From: Bryopsis sp. KO-2023
Taxonomy: Eukaryota > Chlorophyta > Ulvophyceae > Bryopsidales > Bryopsidaceae
Assembly: GCA_030272585.1 (NCBI GenBank)
Contig: BSYQ01000007.1
Location: 1,678,001 to 1,742,000 of the forward strand
DNA: 64,000 nucleotides
Reading direction: 5' to 3'
In this document: piece after piece, positions 23,909-63,923 of the stretch
Position numbering within the stretch: the first letter of the stretch is position 1
Layout of the letters: every line of letters begins with the position of its first letter
The notes under the pieces: model-generated
Told to the model about the DNA's origin: nothing
Database searches by the model: none
What the model saw: the letters and a program-made list of their open reading frames with translations, nothing else
Made by a program: the position numbers and the translations under genes

Positions 23909-24317
23909 TTTGGAAAACGTCAAAACGGGGGACAGAAGGGGACACGCGCGCAACGAAGAGGCGAAACAAAGCGGGCGAATCGCGTTAGTTGAGGGGATGT
24001 GCAAAGACCTCCGATCAGATCTCGGACCCCTGGCGTCCGCAGGTCGGGCGGCGGATCCCGGAGTACAAATATTGTACGAATCTTTTTTTGTTTGGCGTTT
24101 CCAGATGTGAGCAAGCAGGGCCCCCAGCTGAACCCGAATCCGACCATATCTCTTTTGAAAGACATCTCTGGGGTCCAGAAGAGGAAAAACCAACATGAAG
24201 CCCCCTTGTCGCAACTCTACTCAACAGCCTGTTCCGCATATAAGCAAACGCCTTTGAGAAGATGCCGACTCGCGCGTCTGAGACTTTTCTGCGTTTGGCT
24301 CCTTAACACCGTCGGAA
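23909..24317. promoter_or_regulatory. CRD1 upstream region
   Basis: The 409 bases between the CRD1 start codon and the minisatellite. They should contain the core promoter and 5' untranslated region. I find no element I can name with confidence. Confidence 0.4.
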
Positions 24318-24772
24318 TGTTTGGAGGCTTCGCTTCCACGGAAGCACAAGGCGGAAGCGCGCTTCCAAACCGCTTCCTCGGAAGCGGTGCGCTTCCATAT
24401 GCTTCCGTGGAAGCGACTTCGCTTCCAGCAGCGCTTCCATGGAAGCGGCCTCGCCTCCAGCAGCGCTTCCATGGAAGCGGCCTCGCCTCCAGCAGCGCTT
24501 CCATGGAAGCGGCCTCGCCTCCAGCAGCGCTTCCATGGAAGCGGCCTCGCCTCCAGCAGCGCTTCCATGGAAGCGGCCTCGCCTCCAGCAGCGCTTCCAT
24601 GGAAGCGGCCTCGCCTCCAGCAGCGCTTCCATGGAAGCGGCCTCGCCTCCAGCAGCGCTTCCATGGAAGCGGCCTCGCCTCCAGCAGCGCTTCCATGGAA
24701 GCGACCTCGCCTCCAGCAGCGCTTCCAACCACGCTTCCACTGGAAGCAAGCGTTTCCATGGTTCAATCCATA
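24318..24772. repeat. 32-bp minisatellite built on a 16-bp palindrome
   Basis: Nine essentially perfect 32-bp units run from 24431 to 24718. Each contains the perfect palindrome CGCTTCCATGGAAGCG followed by GCCTCGCCTCCAGCAG. Degenerate units with the same GCTTCC...GGAAGC core flank it on both sides (24318-24430 and 24719-24772). Because 32 is not a multiple of 3 and the unit has no stop in any frame, all six frames are open across it; I regard these as chance open frames, not genes. Confidence 0.97.
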
Positions 24773-24813
24773 AAACTCCCCAAACCCTCCAAGAGAATAA
24801 TTTGTATCCCCTG

Positions 24814-26710: not shown

Positions 26711-28135
26711 TTCTGGGGGTGGTTTGTTTGAATGCTCTCAGAAACTCTTCCGAATTCTGCATTGGACTTTTTGCTTGTTTTTTCTTTTCCATCTTCTAAT
26801 AACAAAATAAAGGACTTGGATATACATGTTGGAACATACATGTGCAGCATGAATGTGACTGCACTTCCAGAAGTGGTCCACAGAAATTCTGTGTTTGCTG
26901 CACACTAACAGTTTCCTGGAAAATACAAACACAAACACAAAACACAGGAGAACTGCCTATTCATGAATGCTTGGTAGTGTGAGTCAGTTTGGGACTAGTC
27001 CTAAAAGAGTGTGCAAGGGACGCTCTTTGGGGGCGACCCTGGGCTTTTTCGGGTTCGACTCCCAGTGCTCATTAATAACATCAATTAGACGCAAGAAAAT
27101 TCTTGCAATTTTCCCCCAGCACGCCCAGTTCCGGCTCGCTTCCAATGGAAGCGAAACTGGAAACGATCGCTTCCATTCTCGCCTCCATCGTGGTTCCATC
27201 TTCCGCTTCCGTGGAAGTGAGTGTGGTAGCGACCGCTTCCATGGAAGCAGTCTTGGAAGCGAGCTGTGGGCGTTACAATCGCACGCTTCCACGATCGCTT
27301 CCGCGGAAGCGATCGGTGCCACACTCATTTCCATGGAAGCGGAAGATGGAACCACGATGGAAGCGACGTTGGAAGCGTGCAAACATTCCGACGACAGGCG
27401 GCGCAGCGTATAGGCACATGGCCAGGCGCCGAAAACCGACCGCGAAAGCACTCACCACAGAAACAGTCGGAACGGTGGTCGAAGCGCTGGAGGGAAACAA
27501 AACCCCATATCTGCGTGCGATACAAAAAAACGTGCACCTCGAGAGAAGAACCAAGTCCGCAAACACAAAAACACACGGCTAGGACTTGGTTCATTCATTT
27601 CCTCGTCTTCAGCTCGCACTGGCGTGGTCCGAACTGTGGACGGTGGCGTAATTTAGTAAGCGTTTGTATAAAACAAGCACGGAAAAGTGGGAAACGAGGT
27701 CGCAAAAAGACGCAAATAGGAACGGGAAGACGCCAAAACCGAAACTTCGCGGAGGCGAAGGGGGTGTTCAAATTTGCGTGAAGAGTGCTTTCACCGTGTG
27801 AAATGTAGTAAGAGGTGTAGAACGATGTGACAGCGACTTCCGTCCAGTACAAGTGTTCCCGAGCAGCACAACACATTATGTTCAGGAAAACGAGGTGTGT
27901 CCAGCAAAGGGAGGAGGACTACAGCTTTCCCCCCCTACCCCGTCACGTCGCTTTGGAAGTGTCAAGGGAAAGAGAGATATGCAGTAGCTCGGAACATGAA
28001 CACGGCGCGCATTTCAGAAAAAGCCGAACCAAATACATGAAAAGACAAAAAAGCTTTTTTTCTAGACGAACCTGAAGACGAAGGACGGAGGCGTTGAGAA
28101 GTGGTCGCGCTCTCCGGTGCGGGGGATAAACAGGA
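26711..28135. other. 1.4-kb stretch upstream of the first ankyrin gene
   Basis: Apart from the inverted repeat at 27.1-27.4 kb, no gene is recognised. The last few hundred bases should contain the promoter of the gene beginning at 28136. Confidence 0.4.
27136..27390. repeat. Long imperfect inverted repeat of GCTTCC/GGAAGC type
   Basis: Arms at about 27180-27240 and 27305-27366 are reverse complements at about 90 percent over 61 bases, with a spacer of about 64 bases that itself contains GCTTCC...GGAAGC pairs. The sequence shares the CTTCCATGGAAG core with the minisatellite at 24.4 kb. Confidence 0.85.
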
Positions 28136-31100
28136 ATGGAAGGGGTTCGTGCATGGACGTTCATTGTTCTTGCCGTCCTCCTGTGTTTTCAAGGGTTCGG
28201 TTTCGCCTGCGCTGAGACTGGTGGAGACGCGCTGGCTGGTGCGTTCATGCCATGCTTTAGGGTAGCGATATTTTTTTGTGTTTTTTTCTTGCTCCATTTC
28301 TGCAGCTTTTCCTGGAGCCGAACCAGGGTTGGTTGCGGTGCTGAAACAACTCCTACAGTCTGGGGATCTAGAGTGTCAGGGCTGAAAAAGCTGCACCTTG
28401 TTTTTTTGTGGTTTTTGTACCCCTTCCATATGCAGCAGCATTTCAGTTCCATTCTTGACAGAAAGTGCAGCTTTTTTTTTTCAAGTTCAGATGCAAGGGA
28501 GTCTAGGATGGATCACAATGGAACCTTGTTCACTTTCATTTGATCAGCCCTATCAGTCAGAAAGTATGACCTGGCAGCAGAATCTGTTTGATGCTGTTCA
28601 TTGTTGAGACTGCCTTGATGTGCAAGAAGTCCTGTCAGTCATATGCGCTCATGAGTAATGTTGGATGTGGTGGATGTGCAGGCGAAAGAATAAGCCTCGC
28701 GATCATCAAGGAACATGGATGTACAGTAAATGGCGGAGTCCGAAAACTGCTGCAGGCTGATATCCTGGTACAGTGGTTGAACAAAAGCTTCCCCACCGAT
28801 TAAAAGTTTCCAAAAGAACACCTTCCTCACAGGAAAATCCAATATGAAACGCCTTTTTAAAAATGGGTCGGAAGATAAAAGCCCGAGAAAAGAAATTACC
28901 ACCCGTTTTACGAGGATTTTTTAGTTTTCTTATTTATGACTCGGAAAACAAAGTTATAAAAAAAAAACACGAGTACCTTTGGGTATCTCCATTCCGATCA
29001 ATTTATCCACCACCTAAGTCTGGACTAAAAAATATATACTTTAGGAAAGGATCAACTCTGACCAAATTAATTTGATATCAGGACTTTCCCACAACCAGCC
29101 ACAGAAAAAAAACGGAAAAAAAATGAACCACAGACATCAGAAAATCATATGATGTTGATTCTTTTTGCTGTGGGGTTTCAGGATGCTGACTCGCAGGGGC
29201 CAGGATCAGTGCTGGGCACTGGGGATTCAGAGGGACAGGCTGAGGAGTTTGCTGTCGCAGCAAGCTCTGGCCAGAATGATGTCATTTTGCAGCTTTTAGA
29301 ATCGGGTGTGGATCCAGATTTGACCACCTCGGTAGGGACCCCCCCTTTGTGGAGGGCAGCTTTCAATGATGCTCTCGAAACTGTGGAAATCCTACTGGAT
29401 GCAGGTGGGCACACTCTGGCCAAAGCACAAAAGAGCAAAATTTTTAAAATTAATAATTGAGGCATCTCTCCACTTTGTTTTCTTGTCTTGTATCAGATAC
29501 GACATGGAGGCGTACCATTTTTTCTGTTTATTTGTTTTTTACTTTGTTTGTTTTGTTCATCCTTTCTTTTTTTTTTTGGTGTGTGTGTTCTGTGCTTTTC
29601 CAGAATCACTGCACAGCAGGGTTGCTGAAACTTGTGTGGTGAATCATGTCCATTCTTTTTTAAACAAAGGCGATCGATCTTGGCCTCACAATGATATGAT
29701 TCCAATGCAGGTGCCTCCATTGATGCAACCAATGCCAACGGAACGACATCATTGTATGCTGCTGCTCAAAATGGAAATTTAGATGTCGTCCAAATTCTCA
29801 TCGACCGGGGGGCAGACGTCAACAAGGCTTCCATCTGGGGCTCATCCCCTCTTGTCGTCGCCTCCCAAGAGGGTTTCGTAAAAATTGGCAAAGCCCTGTT
29901 GGATGCTGGAGCGGACCCAGATATCGTTAAGAAGAACTCAGGACAGGGAGCCCTGTGGTCTGCCTCCTTTGGGGGATTCGGCGAAGTGGTGGAGTTGCTG
30001 TTGAAGCATGGAGCGGATGTCGATCTGGCTGACAGCAGCAAGACCACTCCTTTGTATGCTGCTGCTCAGAACAATCGAACGGGTGTCGTGAAATCCCTGT
30101 TGGGAGCAGATGCTGATCCAGACCTGGTGAGACGAAAGACCTAAAAGACAGGATGTGCCCCAAACCTGCAAAAGTTTCACAGCATGTTATTTCGAGAAAA
30201 AATCGACGAAAAGAGCCAGGCGTGACTTTGCTGCAGAGGACCGCCTGCTGTGGTGGTGTTCTTCTTTTTCGACAGCGAAAATCGCTTGTGGAAGCTTTTC
30301 CAGTGTTTTTCCAGCAGTCTTGAAGCTGTTTCCTTTTTGGTTTAAGAAAATTCTGGGTTGGTATGGTCCTTGACAATTTTCTTATGAAAATGCCAGGCCC
30401 GGCGTGATGGCAATGCACCATTACACACAGCATCTGCACACTGCTCCGTCCCAATTGTAAAGCTTCTGGTGGAGGCTGGAGCAAATCGCACTGTCCAGAA
30501 CAAAGACGAAGCTCGGCCTGTCCAAGTTGCATGTCTGGAAGCAAATTCCCAGCAAGGTTTTCAGCAACCCGTCGAAGACATACTAGCCCCGTTGATCAAG
30601 GCAGCCCGACGCGGAGACGCAGCACGTTGCAAGCGGTTGATTTCTGAGGGGGAGCTGGTCAACGAAAAGCTGTGGGACGGCTGGACAGCATTGCATGCAG
30701 GTTCCCTCGCAGGGGCTGATATTGTCGCGTTGTTGCTGGAAGCAGGGGCGGATGTGAATGCCCAGGAGAGTCTTAATCGAACTGCTGTACATATCGGGGC
30801 TATCCAAGGGGACTTGGATGTCGTGACTGCCCTGGTGGAAGGTGGAGCAGACATCAACCTCCGAGACAACAGCGGGAAAACACCACTGCTTGTGGCAGCC
30901 AAGGAGGGCCATGAAGATCTGGTTGCTTATATGATGGAAAACGGTGCCTCTGTCACTGCGGTGGACAAGGACAGGCGAACCACCATGCATCTAGCTGTTC
31001 TGGGCAACAATCCATCATCCAACGTGCTTTTGGCCCTCAAGTCCAAGAAACTCAGGGTGAACGCCAAAGATCGATTCGGAAAGACAGCGCTCCATTATGC

Positions 31101-33105
31101 AGCTGAGATGGGCAGCATGGGGATTGTTGCCCAGCTGGGCAGCTTGAAGGCTGATATGAGTGTGAGAGATTCGCTCGGCAGGACCGCCTTGCATCTCGCG
31201 GCTATGGCCGGAAATGCAGAGGTTGTGGAAAAGCTGTTGGACCTCGGGGCGGACCAAAGCATAGTGGACAACAAGGGGAAGCAGCCAGCGGATCTGGTGG
31301 GGGAAGGTGGTGTCCCGACCACGGAGGAGGGGAAAACCATCGTCGAGTTGCTGTTGGCAGATTCGGCCAGACGGATGATTCAGGCTGCGTGGAGAGGCGA
31401 TCGAGATGAGGTGGTCAAGTATTTGTCCATGGGCATCGACGTGAACGCCGCTGTGGAGAATGGAACGACGGTGCTGCATGTGGCGACGCAACGAGGAGAT
31501 GCCGAGCTCCTGAAAGTGTTGCTGGATGCTGGTGCAAGCTTGGAGCTCTCCGACAACGAAGGTCGCACACCCCTCCACGTGGCTGCTGAATATGGCAAGA
31601 GCGATGTCCTGCCCATGTTTGCTGGTCTCGAGTACAATTTGGAGCTGAAAGATTGGCACGGTCACCATGCATTGCACGTCGCAGCAGGGAGCAAGAGCTC
31701 CGATGTGGAAACTTTAGAGGCGCTGGTGAAACTCGGGGCTCAGGTGAATGCCAAGGACGACAATGGGATGACCCCCTTGCACACGGCCGTCAAGAACGAT
31801 CGGCTGGACCTCACGCGAGTTCTGGTCGGTATGGGGGCAGACAAAGCAATGACCGACAATGAGGGGAGAGAGCCGATGGACATGGTCGACGAATCTGTTC
31901 GGGGGAAAAGACGCAAGCAGTTTGTCAGCCTGCTGAAATCACAGGTGGACACGACAGGGACCGAGAAGGACACCTTGGATGATGTCTTATTGGTGGAACC
32001 CAGGGGTGGCGACACCCCTGAAGTCGATCAAATACATGGCCGGACAGCGAACAGGAAACTGTCCAAATCCACCACGGTGTTCGTGGTTGTGATGCCTGTG
32101 GTTTTCTTTTCCATTCTGGTCGTACTGGTTGCGATGTCGGTGAAGCGGTTCAAGAAACAAGGAGGCCGTGTGGGTCGCCGCTCCTGGTCGTTCAAGAGCC
32201 GCCACGTGGAGACTCCTTCCACGATATTGACCGAGTTGTACATCCCCTCGGAGAACTCCATGAGGTGCTCTTTATCGGGGTTGCGGTCGCCACGCAACCC
32301 TTGTTTTAAGAATCCATACTACAACGAAAGAGGGACCAGGAGTGGGGACGACAGCAACAGCACCGAGGTCGAAAGGGAAGACCAGGAGCAAGAGTCTGAC
32401 ATCCAGGCAAGAGCGCTGGCTCCGGATGCCTGCCAGAAATGGTTGATTGCTAACGCGGCGGCCAGAACTGCAACGGAGGAGGAGGGGGAGGAGGAAATTC
32501 CCCATCAAATGGCAAGAGCACCTGCTCGCCGTGCAGCTTCTTTTCCAGAAAAAGATATTCAGAAACACTTGGACAAGAGCACAATCTTCAAGTCTAAAAG
32601 CGAAAGAATGGGCGGAATTCCCAAAATGGTCCCTCAACCGATCCACAACAGGAGAATCGATGTTCGGAGAATGACGTCGGATGGCAGGGGACACCCCCTG
32701 GTATCTTTTGACGTGACCTCCCAATTTTCCAGCCAGTCGTTTCAATCCATGCAGATGAACAGCATGTATTTCACGGCGTCCAGCAACGGAATCATGGGTC
32801 GACAATTGAGCAGGGAATCGCTGGGGTTACCGGACGAACTGTGGTTCACGGGGGTGGAAGACTTACAGGAGGGCATTCCGGAGGAGCCCGACGGTCGACT
32901 CTCGTCAGACATGGATGCTAACATTTCGACAGATCGAATCACGGATGGAGCTTTTTCTGCTCCGCCCCACGGGGTCTCCAGGACCCACGATTGTGACGAA
33001 AAATTGCAATCCGAAAGAGAACGGACCTCGATGGACAGTGGGTATGGGGAATCCTCGCCAGAAGATGGCGGCGGAGTCGACAAAGAGATTCAAAAACACT
33101 CGTGA
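28136..33105 (+). CDS. Large signal-peptide / ankyrin-repeat / single-transmembrane protein
   Basis: Function unknown; architecture is clear. Exon 28136-28238 encodes a classic signal peptide (MEGVRAWTFIVLAVLLCFQG, then FGFACAE). A likely exon follows at 28306-28372. The joins up to 29182 are unresolved; 28682-28760 may contribute. The body is 29182-29404, 29711-30126 and 30397-33105, all in phase, more than 1,110 residues. It holds about 18 ankyrin repeats (GxTPLHxAAxxGxxxVVxxLLxxGADxN pattern, for example GRTALHLAAMAGNAEVVEKL), ending near 31920. One membrane segment follows at about 32066-32150 (TTVFVVVMPVVFFSILVVLV), then basic residues KRFKKQGGRVGRR and a tail of about 310 residues rich in Ser, acidic and charged stretches. 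By the positive-inside rule the tail is cytosolic, placing the ankyrin array outside the cell or in a lumen, the reverse of the usual location. A sister gene lies at 51390. Confidence 0.8.
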
Positions 33106-49638: not shown

Positions 49639-50554
49639 CTAATCAGAAGTGAATGCTCTTGTTGTGGTCAACCCATCCATCTCAACCTCATTTGATGGCC
49701 CATCACAGTTGCTTTCGGCATCCCAGGAAATAGACGACCCAACCTCCAGCCGCACAACCTCAGCTTCCAACACAGAATCCCAATGCACAAGTCCCTGCTG
49801 GGGAGGTCTGTTTCTGTTTTCTTGGACATCCCCTTTTCCGCTGCTCTCAGATGGACCAGCCATGACTTCCTCCTCCCCATCCCTGACCACGTTAATTTCG
49901 ATTTCCTGGAGTGCAGGTTCGGTGGAGGGCTCAGGGATGGAAGAGCTTCCAAACCTTGCAACAATAAGAACCAGGACACCCAGCATCATCGATGCCAAAA
50001 GCACGGCCATGATTTGTACAGGTATTATTGGATCAGGTGGCGGGACGATTTTTGAGGGAGTGGCGTGCGAGAAGTAGGGGTAGCAAGGGACCGCCAGATC
50101 ACGGGGAGCCCTTTTGAAAAGGGGCAGGTTCCACAGAAACTGGGGCATGGGGGTTGGGGGTGCTGAAAGCTCAGGAGGTTTGCATTGCAGCTCGCCCTGT
50201 GAGATACCTGGACCAAAACCACATTATCCTGAATTTCACAACTGGAGCAGTCTATGCAAGAAGAAAAATGTTTTCTATCAAGATAGGTTTAACTACAGTA
50301 CAAAGCAACGGCCCCAGGCTACAGCACATGCGCTATATATATATAGAAAATATATATATGGTTCGTTCGAAACACGATTCCCAACAAGGGTTGCAACCAT
50401 GCATGGTGATCAAAACAGCAACGAGATTCTCAGAGGAGTATTTCTTCGACGTACTGTCGCCGCTGCTTGCGGGGGCACCAGCACATGCAATCTCAACGCA
50501 CGCCGCCGCCACCACCACCACCAGCAGTAGCATCCCAACGCGCCACAAATCCAT
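49639..50554 (-). CDS. Small type I membrane protein, function unknown
   Basis: I do not recognise the family. Two minus-strand exons, 50554-50398 and 50207-49639, join in phase 1 to give 241 residues. The start encodes a strong signal peptide (MLLLVVVVAAACVEIACAG). About 85 residues of ectodomain follow, Pro-rich, with three cysteines (QCKPPELSAPPTP, VPCYPYF). One membrane segment (IMAVLLASMMLGVLVLIVAR) then leads to an acidic cytosolic tail of about 105 residues with VRDGEEEVMAGP and a Trp in VHWDSVLEAEVVRLEV. The start codon faces the second ankyrin gene with 835 bases between them, so the two may share regulation. The size and topology recall a co-receptor or adaptor subunit, but that is speculation. 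Confidence 0.7.
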
Positions 50555-51389: not shown

Positions 51390-54300
51390 ATGTCGAATGT
51401 GTGGCGTGGATTGGGATTATTGGTGGCGGCGTATTTCTGCACGTTATCAACCGGCCTGGCGTTCCCTGAAGGTAAGATCGCTCGATGGGGGTGGTTTCGT
51501 CTCATGTTCTCGATCGCGGAAAGAGTGCCGCTGCCAAGTACTGCAGGAATTTTTATTTTTATTTTTTTTTTGGGGGGGGGGTGATGGGGTGCGGCAAATT
51601 CACGTGGAGCCGATACGCTGCTGGTTAGATTGACACCGATCACTGAACACGTGGGTGAATCCGTGCAGATAAAAATAACCTAATTGTTGAGATTACAAAG
51701 TCTTCCACATTTGTTTAAATACCTGTTCTTATATTATTTTTTTCTGTTTCAACCATTTTGTCTTTTCTAATCAGGTTATGGAAGTTTGCATCCAGTGGGA
51801 GGTCGAGTGCTGCTACAGCAAGTTGACCAGCCTGGACCTTCAGAGGAGGTAAATTGAATGGAGGGCAGTTTTTCCATTCCATTATTTTCTCTTCATCTAT
51901 TCAAAAGACTTTTCTTTCGATCAAGCTTCCAATCTTTCCATACCCCTCCACTCAGTCCCCCCCCCCCCCTTTTCCTTTTCAGCAAAAACAATGATGGTGG
52001 TATTTTCAATTCCACTGGAGATTGATTTGAAAGAGGTTAACGGTTGTGTTTTATTAGGCCAATGGGACGCCCTTGATTGCAGCAGCCAAGGGAGGCCGTG
52101 TTGAAACAGTCAGAGACCTACTATTGTCGAGCAAGGTAGACCCCGATGGGGGCGACTCAGCCGGTCGCACCGCACTCTGGCATGCTACCTTGAATGGCAA
52201 CCTTCCCACAGTGATCGCCTTGCTAGAGGGTGGGGCAGACCCGAACATCGCAAGCGTTAATGAAACATCTCCCCTTTTCCTCGCTGCACAAAGTGGAAGT
52301 CTGGCAGCGGTTCGAAAACTGGTGGATTTCAATGCAGAAATCGACCATCCATCAGAAAAAGGGGCGACCGCGTTGCTGGTGGCAGCCCAGTCTGGACATA
52401 AGGAAATCGTTCGATTTCTGATCGATCGTGGGGCTGATGTGTCTGTCAGAAAGTCACTCAGCCGCCAGTCTGGGTTATGGTCGGCTGCGTTTTATGGGTA
52501 CGATGAAATCGTGGAGTTGATGGCGTCCAAGGGGGCCGATATCGAGGCAGCTGAGTTGGGGGGTGCTACCCCCCTGTATGCAGCTTCACAGGAGGGCCGT
52601 TTAATGGCAGGGCTTGTTCTCATTGATGTTGGTGCTAATGTCGATGCTGAGTCTGACTCGGGGGTGACTCCGCTGCATGTTGCGGCTGGAGCCTGTCACT
52701 TGGAAATGGTTGCAATTCTTTTGTTGTTTGGGGCTGATGTGAATGTCAGGGATGCGATCGACAGGGGGCCAGAAGATGTTGTTTGTTTGGAAAGGTACCA
52801 ACCGAAACGACAGGCCCGAGTGGAGGAACTGCTCGAGTTTTCTTCCGCTTTGGATGAGGTAGGCAGAAAAATATCCTGCCGAGGGCAACAATGTCTGGTG
52901 AATTCATTCAAGGATCCGCTGCAAAGCATATCCTTGTTGTTGACCCCTGTCCAGACAAGTTGCTTACATGTAGCAATTCGTACAGTAAAAACCAAAAGAA
53001 CGATGTGTTGTTTTATTTTGTTTTTTAAGTATTTGTGGTGGGAACGATGTGAAAAGTGCTGCCTCTTTTTTTTGATGCGACTTTTCAGGATGGTGGCTTT
53101 ATGTGCGTGTGTGTGGGCAATATTTTTGCGCAGGTCATCTCGCTGGCGGATGTTTTGAGGCTGGGCGTTGTGTTTGACCCTGAAGTGTTTGCTAAGATTT
53201 TGGAAATGCTTGGCCTTGATTTCGAGGAGCCTCTGGGTGATGTGGATCTTGCAGAGGTTCCATTAGTCACGGCCTCAGCAGAACCAAAACCATTGACTCA
53301 AGGGGTTGCAATTGTTGGTAAGACATGGGTGCACTCTGGCCAGACGCAACAGCTGAATGGAATGTCATTGTTTCATGTGTTTGTGAGAAACCTAGAAATG
53401 CAAATTCGAACAGAGTGATTCTCGACCTTTCTCTTCCATCGACTCCTAAAATTAAATTGATAATAATTTTTTCAAAGATTGTTTCTTTTTGTTTTCTCGA
53501 GAGGCAATCATGCTGACAAGTAAAAAACAAAGTAAGAAAATGAGTTCTTTTTCATCAGATGTTTCTTTGGGTTTTTTTTGTTTTTCTTTATGGGATTTAC
53601 CCTCCAAATGTAAAAAACGGTTTGTGTTTTTTCTGTTATCCAGAATTAAATTGCAGTTTTTTTTTCCTGTGGCCATAGGACCACGACTCGCCGAGGGCCG
53701 AGTGAAGGCTTCTTCCTCCAGCAAGACTTTCTTGTACATTTTGATCCCCTTACTGGTGTTGCTGGGCCTCGCCGTCGTGATTTCTGGCTACATCCTCCAC
53801 CCCGCCAAGGGAAGGGAGAAAAGAAACAGAAAGAGCCGGAAGAGGGCCCCACGTGGACAGATGTTCATTCACAACCCCCTTGCAGGGCGTCAATCCATTG
53901 TTTCAGACTCTGGCAGATTACGCTCCAGAGAGGCACCGGAATGGATGACCCCCCAAATCCCCAGACCCACCCCAGCAAGGGGAGGCTCCTTAGATAGAAT
54001 GCCATCCCCGCTCCCCAAGTCGTCCCTGTTCTCTGATGACACGCTGCTGGAGCAGCTGCGGGAACCCCAGTGGTTCCCCCCTTCACGGAACTGCGAACGG
54101 GAGGGCTGCCAGCCAGAAGTGGCAAAATCAGAGGGTTCGAACTCTTCGGGTGGACGGGGGGTGACAATCGTTCATCTGACAGAGGAGGAGCTGTCTCTGC
54201 GAGGGCCCATCACATCAGGGGAAATTCAACCAAACACCAGCAGCAACGCGAGCCCATCCCCTGGACCTTCAGAAACTGTTGTGCAGTTCATTCCCCAAGT

Positions 54301-54598
54301 CGATCCGGTGCTGGAGCATTCCCCTTCCCCAGAGCCCTTGCCGACCCAGCGTCCTAGGAATCTGTGGAAACTCGACATGGGGTCGCTGAATTTTTTCAAG
54401 ACGAGGAAGAGTTCGACTGCGACGGATTTGTCGGGGGAAATTTCTGAAATGACTGAGGGAACGGCCCAAGGGGAGCGGCCGCAGACCTCCACATCGAACG
54501 CCGAAACTTTCAACACATCCTATTTGGGAAGCCAGGGTGGGTCGTCTGTTCATTATTCCCCTCGGGACTCCCGGGAGGAAGCTCGATATGGTCCATAA
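51390..54598 (+). CDS. Signal-peptide / ankyrin-repeat / single-transmembrane protein, second gene
   Basis: Function unknown; same plan as the gene at 28136. Exons in phase: 51390-51471, 51775-51848, 52058-52858, 53134-53317, 53679-54598; 686 residues. The fourth exon could also begin at 53089, adding 15 residues. Exon 1 encodes a signal peptide (LGLLVAAYFCTLSTGLAFPE). Exon 3 carries about seven ankyrin repeats (for example GATPLYAASQEGRLMAGLVL and GVTPLHVAAGACHLEMVAIL). A short linker follows, ISLADVLRLGVVFDPEVFAK and DFEEPLGDVDLAEVP. The membrane segment is FLYILIPLLVLLGLAVVISG at about 53734-53795, followed by a strongly basic stop-transfer sequence (KGREKRNRKSRKR) and a tail of about 250 residues rich in Ser, Pro and Glu. 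The tail has no catalytic domain. The predicted topology puts the ankyrin repeats outside the cytosol. Confidence 0.85.
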
Positions 54599-62087: not shown

Positions 62088-63923
62088 CTATCGACCCCCA
62101 AATGTTGGGAACCCACTGCCATCACTTCCCTGAGATTCACCCCCGACCAAATCTGCTGCTGGTGCCTCCTCACTATTAAAATTCCCAACATCGCCAGAAA
62201 ATGCATTTGCCCCATCCCCCCCAAACTCTGAAACCCCTCCGTTTCGGAAACCAATAGTTGGCAGGGTGGTGCTCGTTCCTGGGAGGGGGGGTGGATTTTT
62301 GAACAGGCTCCGAGCCCAATCACGGAAGGTCGCTACATTGGTGTAGATGGCAGGCTTGGTGCCCAGCTCGCAGGGGTCCTGCCTGAAAGACATCACGCCA
62401 GCCAGCAGATCCAGGTCTGGCCTCCCTTCGTTGATGCCTTCATAAAACTTGTTGACCAGCATCAGCACCCCACTGGTCCTTTCACCTGCTCGTTCACCCC
62501 AACAAAAAGAGAGTCTGATAAATCACAAGCTTCAACAGGCACAAAAAAAACAGCCAAAAAGGAAAAATAGAGCTCAGGTGGTACACACATCATGAACGCA
62601 ATCCGTGAGAAGTTTTTCAGACTGCTCGTCCACATAGATAATTGTTATGGGTGGAATGGATTCATGCGACAGAAAACGAGCACAGTGGTAAAAACTAGCC
62701 AGCTAATATCTGAATGGACGGATCCTGGTAGCCTACCTTTGCACACCTCATCTATTCGAGCGCTGATGCAGCTCATGGAGGCCTCCATTTTCATTTCCCA
62801 CGCGTCCTCACAATTGACATTAGGGACGGCACCGTTCCTCTGGAAACCCATTATTTTTGCTGGCCCCTTGAGGGTGTTCCACCCGAGCCCAAAAAGCGGG
62901 TCCAATCCACGGGGCTTAAAATTTGGATCAGGGATGGACACTGTGGTCAATTCTGTGGGGTTTTCCAGTCTCAGCAATGAGACGTCCCCTCCAGAAGCTG
63001 GGTTGCCAGTGTGTGGTGGTGGATATTGAATGTCGATCACCTTGATTACCTGTGAAACCAAACATGGAAGACTGGTGGTAGTGCGACATTTCCCAAAAAA
63101 GTGGTGATCAAAGACGAACAGTGGTGTCAGTCATGTGTTCAATCTTGGTGGAGTGGGGGAAACTGTGTGAGTAAAATTACAAGTTTTTTGAGATGTGGAA
63201 AGCACTACGGAAAAAAAAAGAATCGCTTTGAAATGTGGTTTCAAAGACAGAACGCATCCATATCGTCGTTTCCTGAACAAAACTCAGAAAGAGCACTCCA
63301 GAAAAAGTGGAGGCAGGGAAAAACCTACATTGCTGGTGTCATCGATGTCCACGGTGTCCAGTGCCACAGTGAAAGTGCTTGCATCCCCTCCAGCCACGCA
63401 CTGTGCAGCAACCACCACCCAGCTGGGGTCGACAAGAGCACCGGTGCATACGTGCCCGAAAGAATTTCTGAGGGAAACTATATACGGAAATCGACCTTTC
63501 TTGATGGGCTGCACAGAGGCACAAACACATGACACATAGCCCAGGGTCAGGCTCCATTTGCTTCCTTCTCTTTCCCATGCAAACTCAGCAATTGGAGCCA
63601 CTGGGTAAGAAGCGCACAAACGACTTCCAGGAATGGTGGTCGTAAGCAAATCGGCAAGGGATCGTGTAAGTTTTTTGGTTATGAATGTACGAATCGATAT
63701 TTGCCACAATTCAATCTCGAATCCATGCTCCTGCAAGGAAAACGCTGCAAGAAAACACACACACAGACACACACGATGGAACAGAAAACTGCACCTCTTC
63801 AACCACGCTTTTAGGACTTCCATTGCCTTGAAGCAGGCTTCTGGCGGCTCCGTGAGCGGTCGAGCCTAACATACGCAAAAACACGCAGTAGTTCAACAAA
63901 AGCATTTTCAGAGAAGCACGCAT
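62088..63923 (-). CDS. Secreted trypsin-like protein lacking the catalytic histidine (predicted pseudoprotease)
   Basis: Chymotrypsin-fold (S1) protein. Minus-strand exons 63923-63795, 63730-63329, 63049-62737 and 62485-62088 fit in phase; 413 residues. The first exon encodes a hydrophobic N-terminus (MLLLNYCVFLRMLG), likely a signal peptide. The S1 core starts KKGRFPYIVSLRNSFGHVCT, GALVDPSWVVVAAQCV; the usual TAAHC is AAQC, so the catalytic His is Gln. The Asp motif is kept (GGDVSLLRLE). The Ser region reads EVCKGERTSGVLML where CxGDSGGP is expected; the Ser may be the one in TSG, but the Asp before it and the glycine pattern are lost. The C-terminal strand and helix are normal (LLAGVMSFRQDPCELGTKPA, IYTNVATFRDWARSLF), followed by a Pro/Gly/Ser-rich tail. 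The fold is kept and catalysis probably lost, suggesting binding or decoy roles. Confidence 0.85.

Follow-up and report, generated by a model that had tools for sequence, protein, structure and literature searches.

Four genes of the green alga Bryopsis sp. KO-2023 probably encode type I membrane proteins that bear ankyrin repeats in their ectodomains and serve recognition or adhesion. Two of them lie in the window—the 64,000-nucleotide stretch of DNA analyzed here (C7:1678001-1742000), from a genome of 91.09 Mb in 28 contigs. We call these ANK2 (51390-54598, + strand), our main subject, and ANK1 (28136-33105, + strand); ANK3 (C7:1503k) and ANK4 (C7:3629k) lie elsewhere on the same contig. Bryopsis (Chlorophyta, Ulvophyceae, Bryopsidales) is a siphonous green alga that lives as a giant single cell. 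Textbooks treat ankyrin repeats as binding modules of the cell interior, and to our knowledge they are nearly always intracellular. From the layout of the predicted proteins, a type I topology that places the ankyrin domain outside the cytosol is very likely for ANK2 and its three paralogues; a recognition or receptor role for the family is a more tentative assignment, with chances a little under even.

What does ANK2 encode? The gene has five exons with GT-AG introns in phases 1, 0, 0, and 1, followed by a stop codon, and its spliced 686-aa product is identical to the deposited hypothetical protein BSKO_08076, which bears out the claim of an earlier sequence-only reading that all of its exon phases close. 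In order, the protein consists of a signal peptide, an RVLLQ linker, seven ankyrin repeats, a stalk, a transmembrane segment, a basic stop-transfer stretch, and a tail:

51390..51471, + strand: exon 1, start codon and signal peptide MSNVWRGLGLLVAAYFCTLSTGLA, with a phase-1 donor; identical to BSKO_08076
51775..51848, + strand: exon 2, 74 nt, RVLLQ between signal peptide and repeats
52058..52858, + strand: exon 3, seven ankyrin repeats including the S.Q..LWSA.F signature (Pfam, AlphaFold, alignment)
53134..53317, + strand: exon 4, juxtamembrane stalk
53679..54598, + strand: exon 5, transmembrane segment, basic stop-transfer, 265-aa Ser/Thr/Pro-rich tail, stop

Ankyrin families alone exceed the Pfam cut-off in ANK2, and AlphaFold builds seven helix pairs over residues 56-275, with pLDDT mostly above 90. 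A single hydrophobic segment follows the repeats, beginning at about residue 393 (19-residue windows starting at 395-405), and the AlphaFold helix at this position is of low confidence. One further weak hydropathy window, at residue 260 (1.94 against a cut of 1.9), falls within repeat 7 and is read as a repeat helix rather than a membrane segment. The tail, 32% S/T/P with pLDDT below 50 nearly throughout, is predicted to be disordered.

ANK1, 18 kb away by the same reading, had been left with one open exon join. A GT-AG solution exists for that join, and the phases close over five exons to give a frame of 1178 aa:

28136..28238, + strand: exon 1, signal peptide MEGVRAWTFIVLAVLLCFQGFGFACA, with a phase-1 donor
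28682..28767, + strand: exon 2, RKLLQ motif
29182..29404, + strand: exon 3, first ankyrin repeats
29711..30126, + strand: exon 4, ankyrin repeats (Pfam match)
30397..33105, + strand: exon 5, the remaining ankyrin repeats, transmembrane segment, 317-aa tail, stop

Counted by eye on the protein sequence, ANK1 has about 18-19 repeats, and the difference in repeat number from ANK2 holds as originally described. No deposited model of ANK1 was seen, and the ANK1 and ANK3 models come from this analysis alone.

Do these two genes belong to a family? Searching the genome with the ankyrin exon of ANK2 returned at least 150 matches (144 of 434 candidates scored), led by the ANK4 locus (C7:3629152-3629874; 43% identity, E 5e-47) and the ANK3 locus (C7:1502986-1503735; 35% identity, E 4e-43); the next locus follows at 1.9e-28 and a piece of an ANK1 exon at 3.5e-24. 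ANK2 and ANK4 are reciprocal best genome matches. With ANK4 as the query, ANK3 (1.4e-46) is followed by a secreted-type gene at C3:1858582 (1e-41), a gene on contig C15 (3e-41), and the ANK1 exon piece (3.6e-25); similarity in the ankyrin block is by itself no clean divide between membrane and secreted members. The ANK4 model is identical over 900 aa to deposited BSKO_08371. Both ANK2 and ANK4 had been spliced before BSKO_08076 and BSKO_08371 were consulted, and both matched exactly, although the deposited models are themselves predictions that may rely on the same signals as ours.

All four genes share one plan. Each opens with a signal-peptide exon (82, 103, 112, and 118 nt) that ends in a phase-1 donor. 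The next exon carries an Rx[LM]LQ motif (its 74-nt form in ANK2 is also present in ANK4), and after it come a related ankyrin block with the S.Q..LWSA.F signature (35-43% identity), a single hydrophobic segment downstream of the repeats, and a long tail. The suggestion that the two genes of the window reflect a gene family rather than an accident is therefore upheld and extended: ANK3 and ANK4 lie outside the window, and the family appears to number at least four genes on contig C7, in a genome of which only part of the ankyrin loci was read. All six pairs of ankyrin blocks (35-40% identity over 246-258 aligned codons) gave pS of 0.72-0.77 and dN of 0.66-0.71, values that point to old duplicates whose ankyrin frames have been kept intact. 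Synonymous sites are at or near saturation between the paralogues, which are therefore too old for a test of positive selection. The position of one N-x-T sequon is invariant in all four blocks. When 239 distinct proteins—the best 120 matches each of ANK2 and ANK4, chosen by ankyrin similarity—were scanned for a signal-peptide-like start together with a membrane segment after the repeats, only ANK2 and ANK4 themselves passed; the layout may occur elsewhere, beyond those proteins.

The tails tell a different story from the ankyrin blocks. They range from 265 to 412 residues, with frames open to the stop in all four models, and for the six tail pairs the observed alignment score was reached by 19, 38, 207, 212, 213, and 260 of 300 shuffles. 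Genome-wide searches with the ANK2 exon 5 protein and the ANK1 tail returned the queries themselves and then chance matches (E at least 0.44), so that the tails are indeed as unrelated as they had first looked. A shared tail motif noticed by eye (NPL/NPY, with a W-rich stretch) was dropped because no pair clearly exceeded its shuffles. Pfam found no kinase, TIR, death, or other signaling domain in ANK2, ANK3, ANK4, or the last exon of ANK1. The tail exon of ANK2 matched no family with E values up to 1, the ANK3 and ANK4 tails matched none either, and the trypsin domain (PF00089) was absent from ANK2, ANK3, and ANK4. The charge around the membrane segment was compared by counting K/R in the 28 residues directly after it (inside) and in 24 residues outside. 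The basic inner flank is clear in three of the four genes (10 versus 3 in ANK2, 9 versus 5 in ANK1, 7 versus 3 in ANK4) and absent in ANK3 (4 versus 3). N-glycosylation sequons in the ectodomains were considered as a sign of extracellular location and rejected, as they were not enriched (11 observed, 10.0 expected from shuffles).

Which other Bryopsis proteins combine a signal peptide with ankyrin repeats? All those seen, like the trypsin-ankyrin fusions, lie beyond the window. Models made here place the two together, without a membrane segment, at L022, L023 (two genes), L024, and L053, and in the C15 gene, whose modeled 1,234 residues hold roughly 33 repeats as estimated from length. A longer L022 model with a hydrophobic segment downstream of the repeats (residue 350) was set aside for a shorter one that finishes at the ankyrin exon's stop codon, with a C-terminal cap like that of its relatives. 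The same signal-peptide/ankyrin start occurs at L037, L040, L041, and L046, of which only the 5' parts were modeled and which could have a membrane segment downstream. The L050 model carries RKLLQ and ends in the same C-terminal cap, but its start cuts the signal peptide; L052 has RNLLQ and no signal peptide in its model, and L051 has neither. Trypsin and ankyrin are joined in the L032 model and, by eye, in the 5' parts of L039, L042, L043, and L044. Across 12 upstream regions, four were of the signal-peptide/ankyrin type, four were trypsin-ankyrin, and four (L038, L045, L047, and L048) had no signal peptide. A survey of 20 other regions, with one ankyrin gene modeled per region, placed three regions (L022, L023, and L024) in the secreted ankyrin group and one (L032) in the trypsin-ankyrin group; the 16 in which none was counted include ambiguous, signal-peptide-like starts at L017 and L019 and regions with no multi-motif ankyrin ORF (L013, L021, and L025). 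Hydrophobic windows occur in the models of L020, L026, L029, and L031.

The trypsin fusions recur among deposited proteins. A query with the trypsin part retrieved 12 from Bryopsis, 11 of which carry both PF00089 and ankyrin families, as do Ostreobium quekettii P0254, the EukProt model P0253, and the metagenomic P0252; the combination was rechecked by Pfam in P0245, P0252, and P0254. None of the trypsin-query matches was identical to the L032 model (best 84%). Among the 12 Bryopsis proteins, a signal-peptide-like start is present in eight and absent from P0243, P0244, P0247, and P0249; none has a membrane segment after residue 40. Rx[LM]LQ lies within the first 130 residues of seven of the 12 and of the metagenomic trypsin-ankyrin protein, versus 5 of 271 other fetched proteins. 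Domains of this trypsin-like class function mostly in secreted proteins, and their fusion to ankyrin behind a like N-terminal plan raises the likelihood of secretory-route entry for the ankyrin part of ANK2 as well. Judged by their predicted layouts, the secreted ankyrin and trypsin-ankyrin relatives together support a non-cytosolic ankyrin domain in ANK2.

Is the signal-peptide exon real? Signal peptides were called here by hydropathy, and these regions often contain signal-peptide-like ORFs, with 2 to 9 in each region scanned. We therefore tested the whole upstream chain against chance, searching the 1,400 bases upstream for a signal-peptide-like ORF, a donor, an acceptor, and an exon with Rx[LM]LQ in frame. 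The chain was found upstream of three of the four family genes (ANK1, ANK2, and ANK4), with ANK3 missing it narrowly (donor score 1.9 against a cut of 2.0), and in none of four reverse strands and none of 600 dinucleotide shuffles, a contrast to be read with the caution that Rx[LM]LQ was first noticed in these same genes. The motif does recur in deposited proteins fetched afterwards. Gene finding was less uniform. With a small intron penalty the gene finder over-split genes, and the larger penalty adopted instead recovered ANK2 except for a different exon 4 acceptor; a still larger penalty dropped the ANK2 signal-peptide exon and exon 2 of ANK4. The signal-peptide starts of ANK1 and ANK3 were missed by the gene finder, and their exons were picked from the scan and by eye. 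Were the exon a gene-model error, the true start would lie in the ankyrin exon, and the protein would be cytosolic with one C-terminal membrane anchor. The abundance of signal-peptide-like ORFs upstream and the loss of the ANK2 exon at the higher penalty both suit such an error. However, the exon is included in two deposited models and recurs with the same intron phase in four of four genes, the upstream chain did not arise in the shuffles, and secreted relatives and trypsin fusions show a like N-terminal plan; we regard the error as very improbable.

If the topology is type I, what might the proteins do? The explanation we favor, and consider reasonably likely as a whole, is that ANK1-4 are type I proteins of the secretory pathway whose solenoid would bind an extracellular partner while their tails would recruit cytosolic ones. 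The signal peptide would be removed, possibly with extra trimming near Rx[LM]LQ; the solenoid would come to lie in a lumen or beyond the cell surface, with the tail on the cytosolic side. The bound protein could be microbial, self, or wound-released, or could come from among the ankyrin and trypsin-ankyrin proteins that the alga itself secretes; the tails, having diverged, could recruit different cytosolic partners. Such a protein would act much like a receptor-like protein without a kinase and, with the kinase missing, would need a co-receptor or tail phosphorylation, as an LRR receptor-like protein does. The same topology could also serve without signaling, in adhesins or in tethers between cell wall and plasma membrane whose solenoid holds wall or matrix proteins and whose tail is an anchor. 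The tails carry no signaling domain and do not align with one another beyond shuffles, and that of ANK2 is predicted to be disordered, a pattern to be expected of tails in which length or charge alone counts; at 265-412 residues, however, they are long for a plain anchor, and their frames run open to the stop in four models. We think this reading unlikely. Lower still, and quite unlikely, we place lumenal ankyrin proteins of the ER, Golgi, or vacuole, such as sorting receptors for secreted ankyrin or trypsin-ankyrin cargo: the topology evidence is equally compatible with them and the soluble relatives are natural cargo or partners, but no pointer to an internal compartment was noticed, itself a weak point against them. 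Returning to surface receptors, a wider proposal is rather doubtful in our estimate, namely that Bryopsidales possess an extracellular recognition system built on ankyrin repeats in parallel to the LRR one of land plants. Its components would be soluble binders with as many as roughly 33 repeats, trypsin-like proteases guided by ankyrin repeats, and type I membrane receptors whose tails could be exchanged, and many of these proteins would enter the secretory route with Rx[LM]LQ as a common maturation signal. RxLxE/Q/D is an export motif of malaria parasites, and the resemblance of the R-x-L-x-Q shape to it makes an aspartic-protease step in the secretory route conceivable.

If the favored reading is true, a green-lineage organism displays ankyrin repeats, secretes them, and fuses them to proteases, which would give plant-type surface recognition a second kind of solenoid. 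Natural extracellular ankyrin proteins would be members of the class that engineers imitate with DARPins, and Bryopsis would offer a testable case. The alga regrows from spilled protoplasm. It is cultured with many bacteria, according to one report (PMC12509668). Our literature searches, with most subscription papers outside their reach, found no report of extracellular ankyrin membrane proteins in algae.

How do ANK1-4 compare with known systems? The idea that ANK2 is an analogue of LRR receptors holds only for its type I shape, whereas Pfam finds no LRR, kinase, or other signaling domain. Plant LRR receptor-like proteins (LRR-RLPs) and receptor kinases share the layout of signal peptide, solenoid ectodomain, one membrane helix, and cytosolic tail, and the LRR-RLPs combine this type I arrangement with short cytosolic tails; ANK1-4 differ in having ankyrin instead of LRR, no kinase, and long, unrelated tails. 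The pattern of conservation is also opposite to that of LRR receptor kinases, in which the cytosolic domain is the conserved part: in the ANK proteins conservation is found in the ectodomain and not in the tail. Plant proteins of the ACD6/PGG type have ankyrin repeats, a PGG domain, and several membrane segments. Like them, ANK1-4 join ankyrin to a membrane segment in the green lineage; unlike them, they have no PGG domain by Pfam and one segment after the repeats, and the signal peptide would put the ankyrin part on the other side of the membrane. By sequence, the best solved chains are 4rlv and 7tw3, from the membrane adaptors Ankyrin-1/2/3. These are cytosolic adaptors with ZU5 and death domains, neither of which Pfam found here, and only the ankyrin fold is common to both groups.

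Secreted ankyrin proteins as such are already known. Among solved chains matched by sequence, latrotoxins (9goa, 7ptx, and 7pty) have ankyrin repeats that leave the cell, and PMC11139960 describes secreted ankyrin effectors in oomycetes, where ankyrin likewise leaves the cell as proposed here; both have other domains and functions. Further parallels are the trypsin-ankyrin fusions of the Bryopsidales (among them BSKO_04611, BSKO_04609, and Ostreobium quekettii P0254), which set ankyrin beside a domain of extracellular type. They differ from the ANK proteins in possessing PF00089 and, in the 12 Bryopsis proteins, in having no membrane segment after residue 40, and a majority of those 12 share with them a signal-peptide-like start (eight) and Rx[LM]LQ (seven; RVLLQ in ANK2, RKLLQ in ANK4). 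Among the matches listed, trypsin and ankyrin hits both crowd, by eye, on contig C4.

How far is the Rx[LM]LQ motif shared among Bryopsis proteins? It lies about 20-75 residues from the start in many secreted-type proteins of this alga, with carriers among the N-termini of ANK1-4, the secreted ankyrin genes and the trypsin-ankyrin genes. The motif is also found at the N-terminus of the gene at window position 63842 (-), and a metagenomic relative likewise carries it. Rx[LM]LQ is a possible maturation site. At the opposite end, the C-termini of the secreted ankyrin genes L022 and L023, the trypsin-ankyrin gene L032 and the further ankyrin locus L050 have in common a Cys-containing cap (VCxC...C....C....(E)LRALFD or close). 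Ankyrin repeats do not usually have such a cap, and its cysteines hint at disulphides.

Ankyrin genes of other architectures lie on further contigs:

C4, about 0.5-4 Mb: large cluster of trypsin-ankyrin fusion genes (e.g., L032, L039, L042, L043, L044)
C15:911519-915978 (-): predicted 1,234-aa ankyrin protein

Ankyrin and trypsin matches are interleaved on C4 among the matches listed. The C15 protein combines about 33 ankyrin repeats with a signal peptide, and no membrane segment was seen in its predicted sequence.

Further features lie within the window:

49639-50554 (-): neighbour gene of ANK2, transcribed divergently from it
63284-63865 (-): ORF resembling a trypsin, at one edge of the window
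24250-24800 and 27120-27380: repeated GCTTCCATGGAAGC-like units, found by eye

The neighbour gene, which could be a partner gene of ANK2, begins with a signal-peptide-like start (MDLWRVGMLLLVVVVAAA), followed by a short stretch, a single membrane segment and a tail of ~100 residues. It contains no ankyrin repeats, and its exon 2 had no other match in the genome search (next E 0.08). The trypsin-like ORF reads AAQC where one would expect AAHC, with the catalytic histidine; it is perhaps an inactive protease homologue. The GCTTCCATGGAAGC-like repeats look like a minisatellite, and both strands of 24250-24800 contain long open frames.
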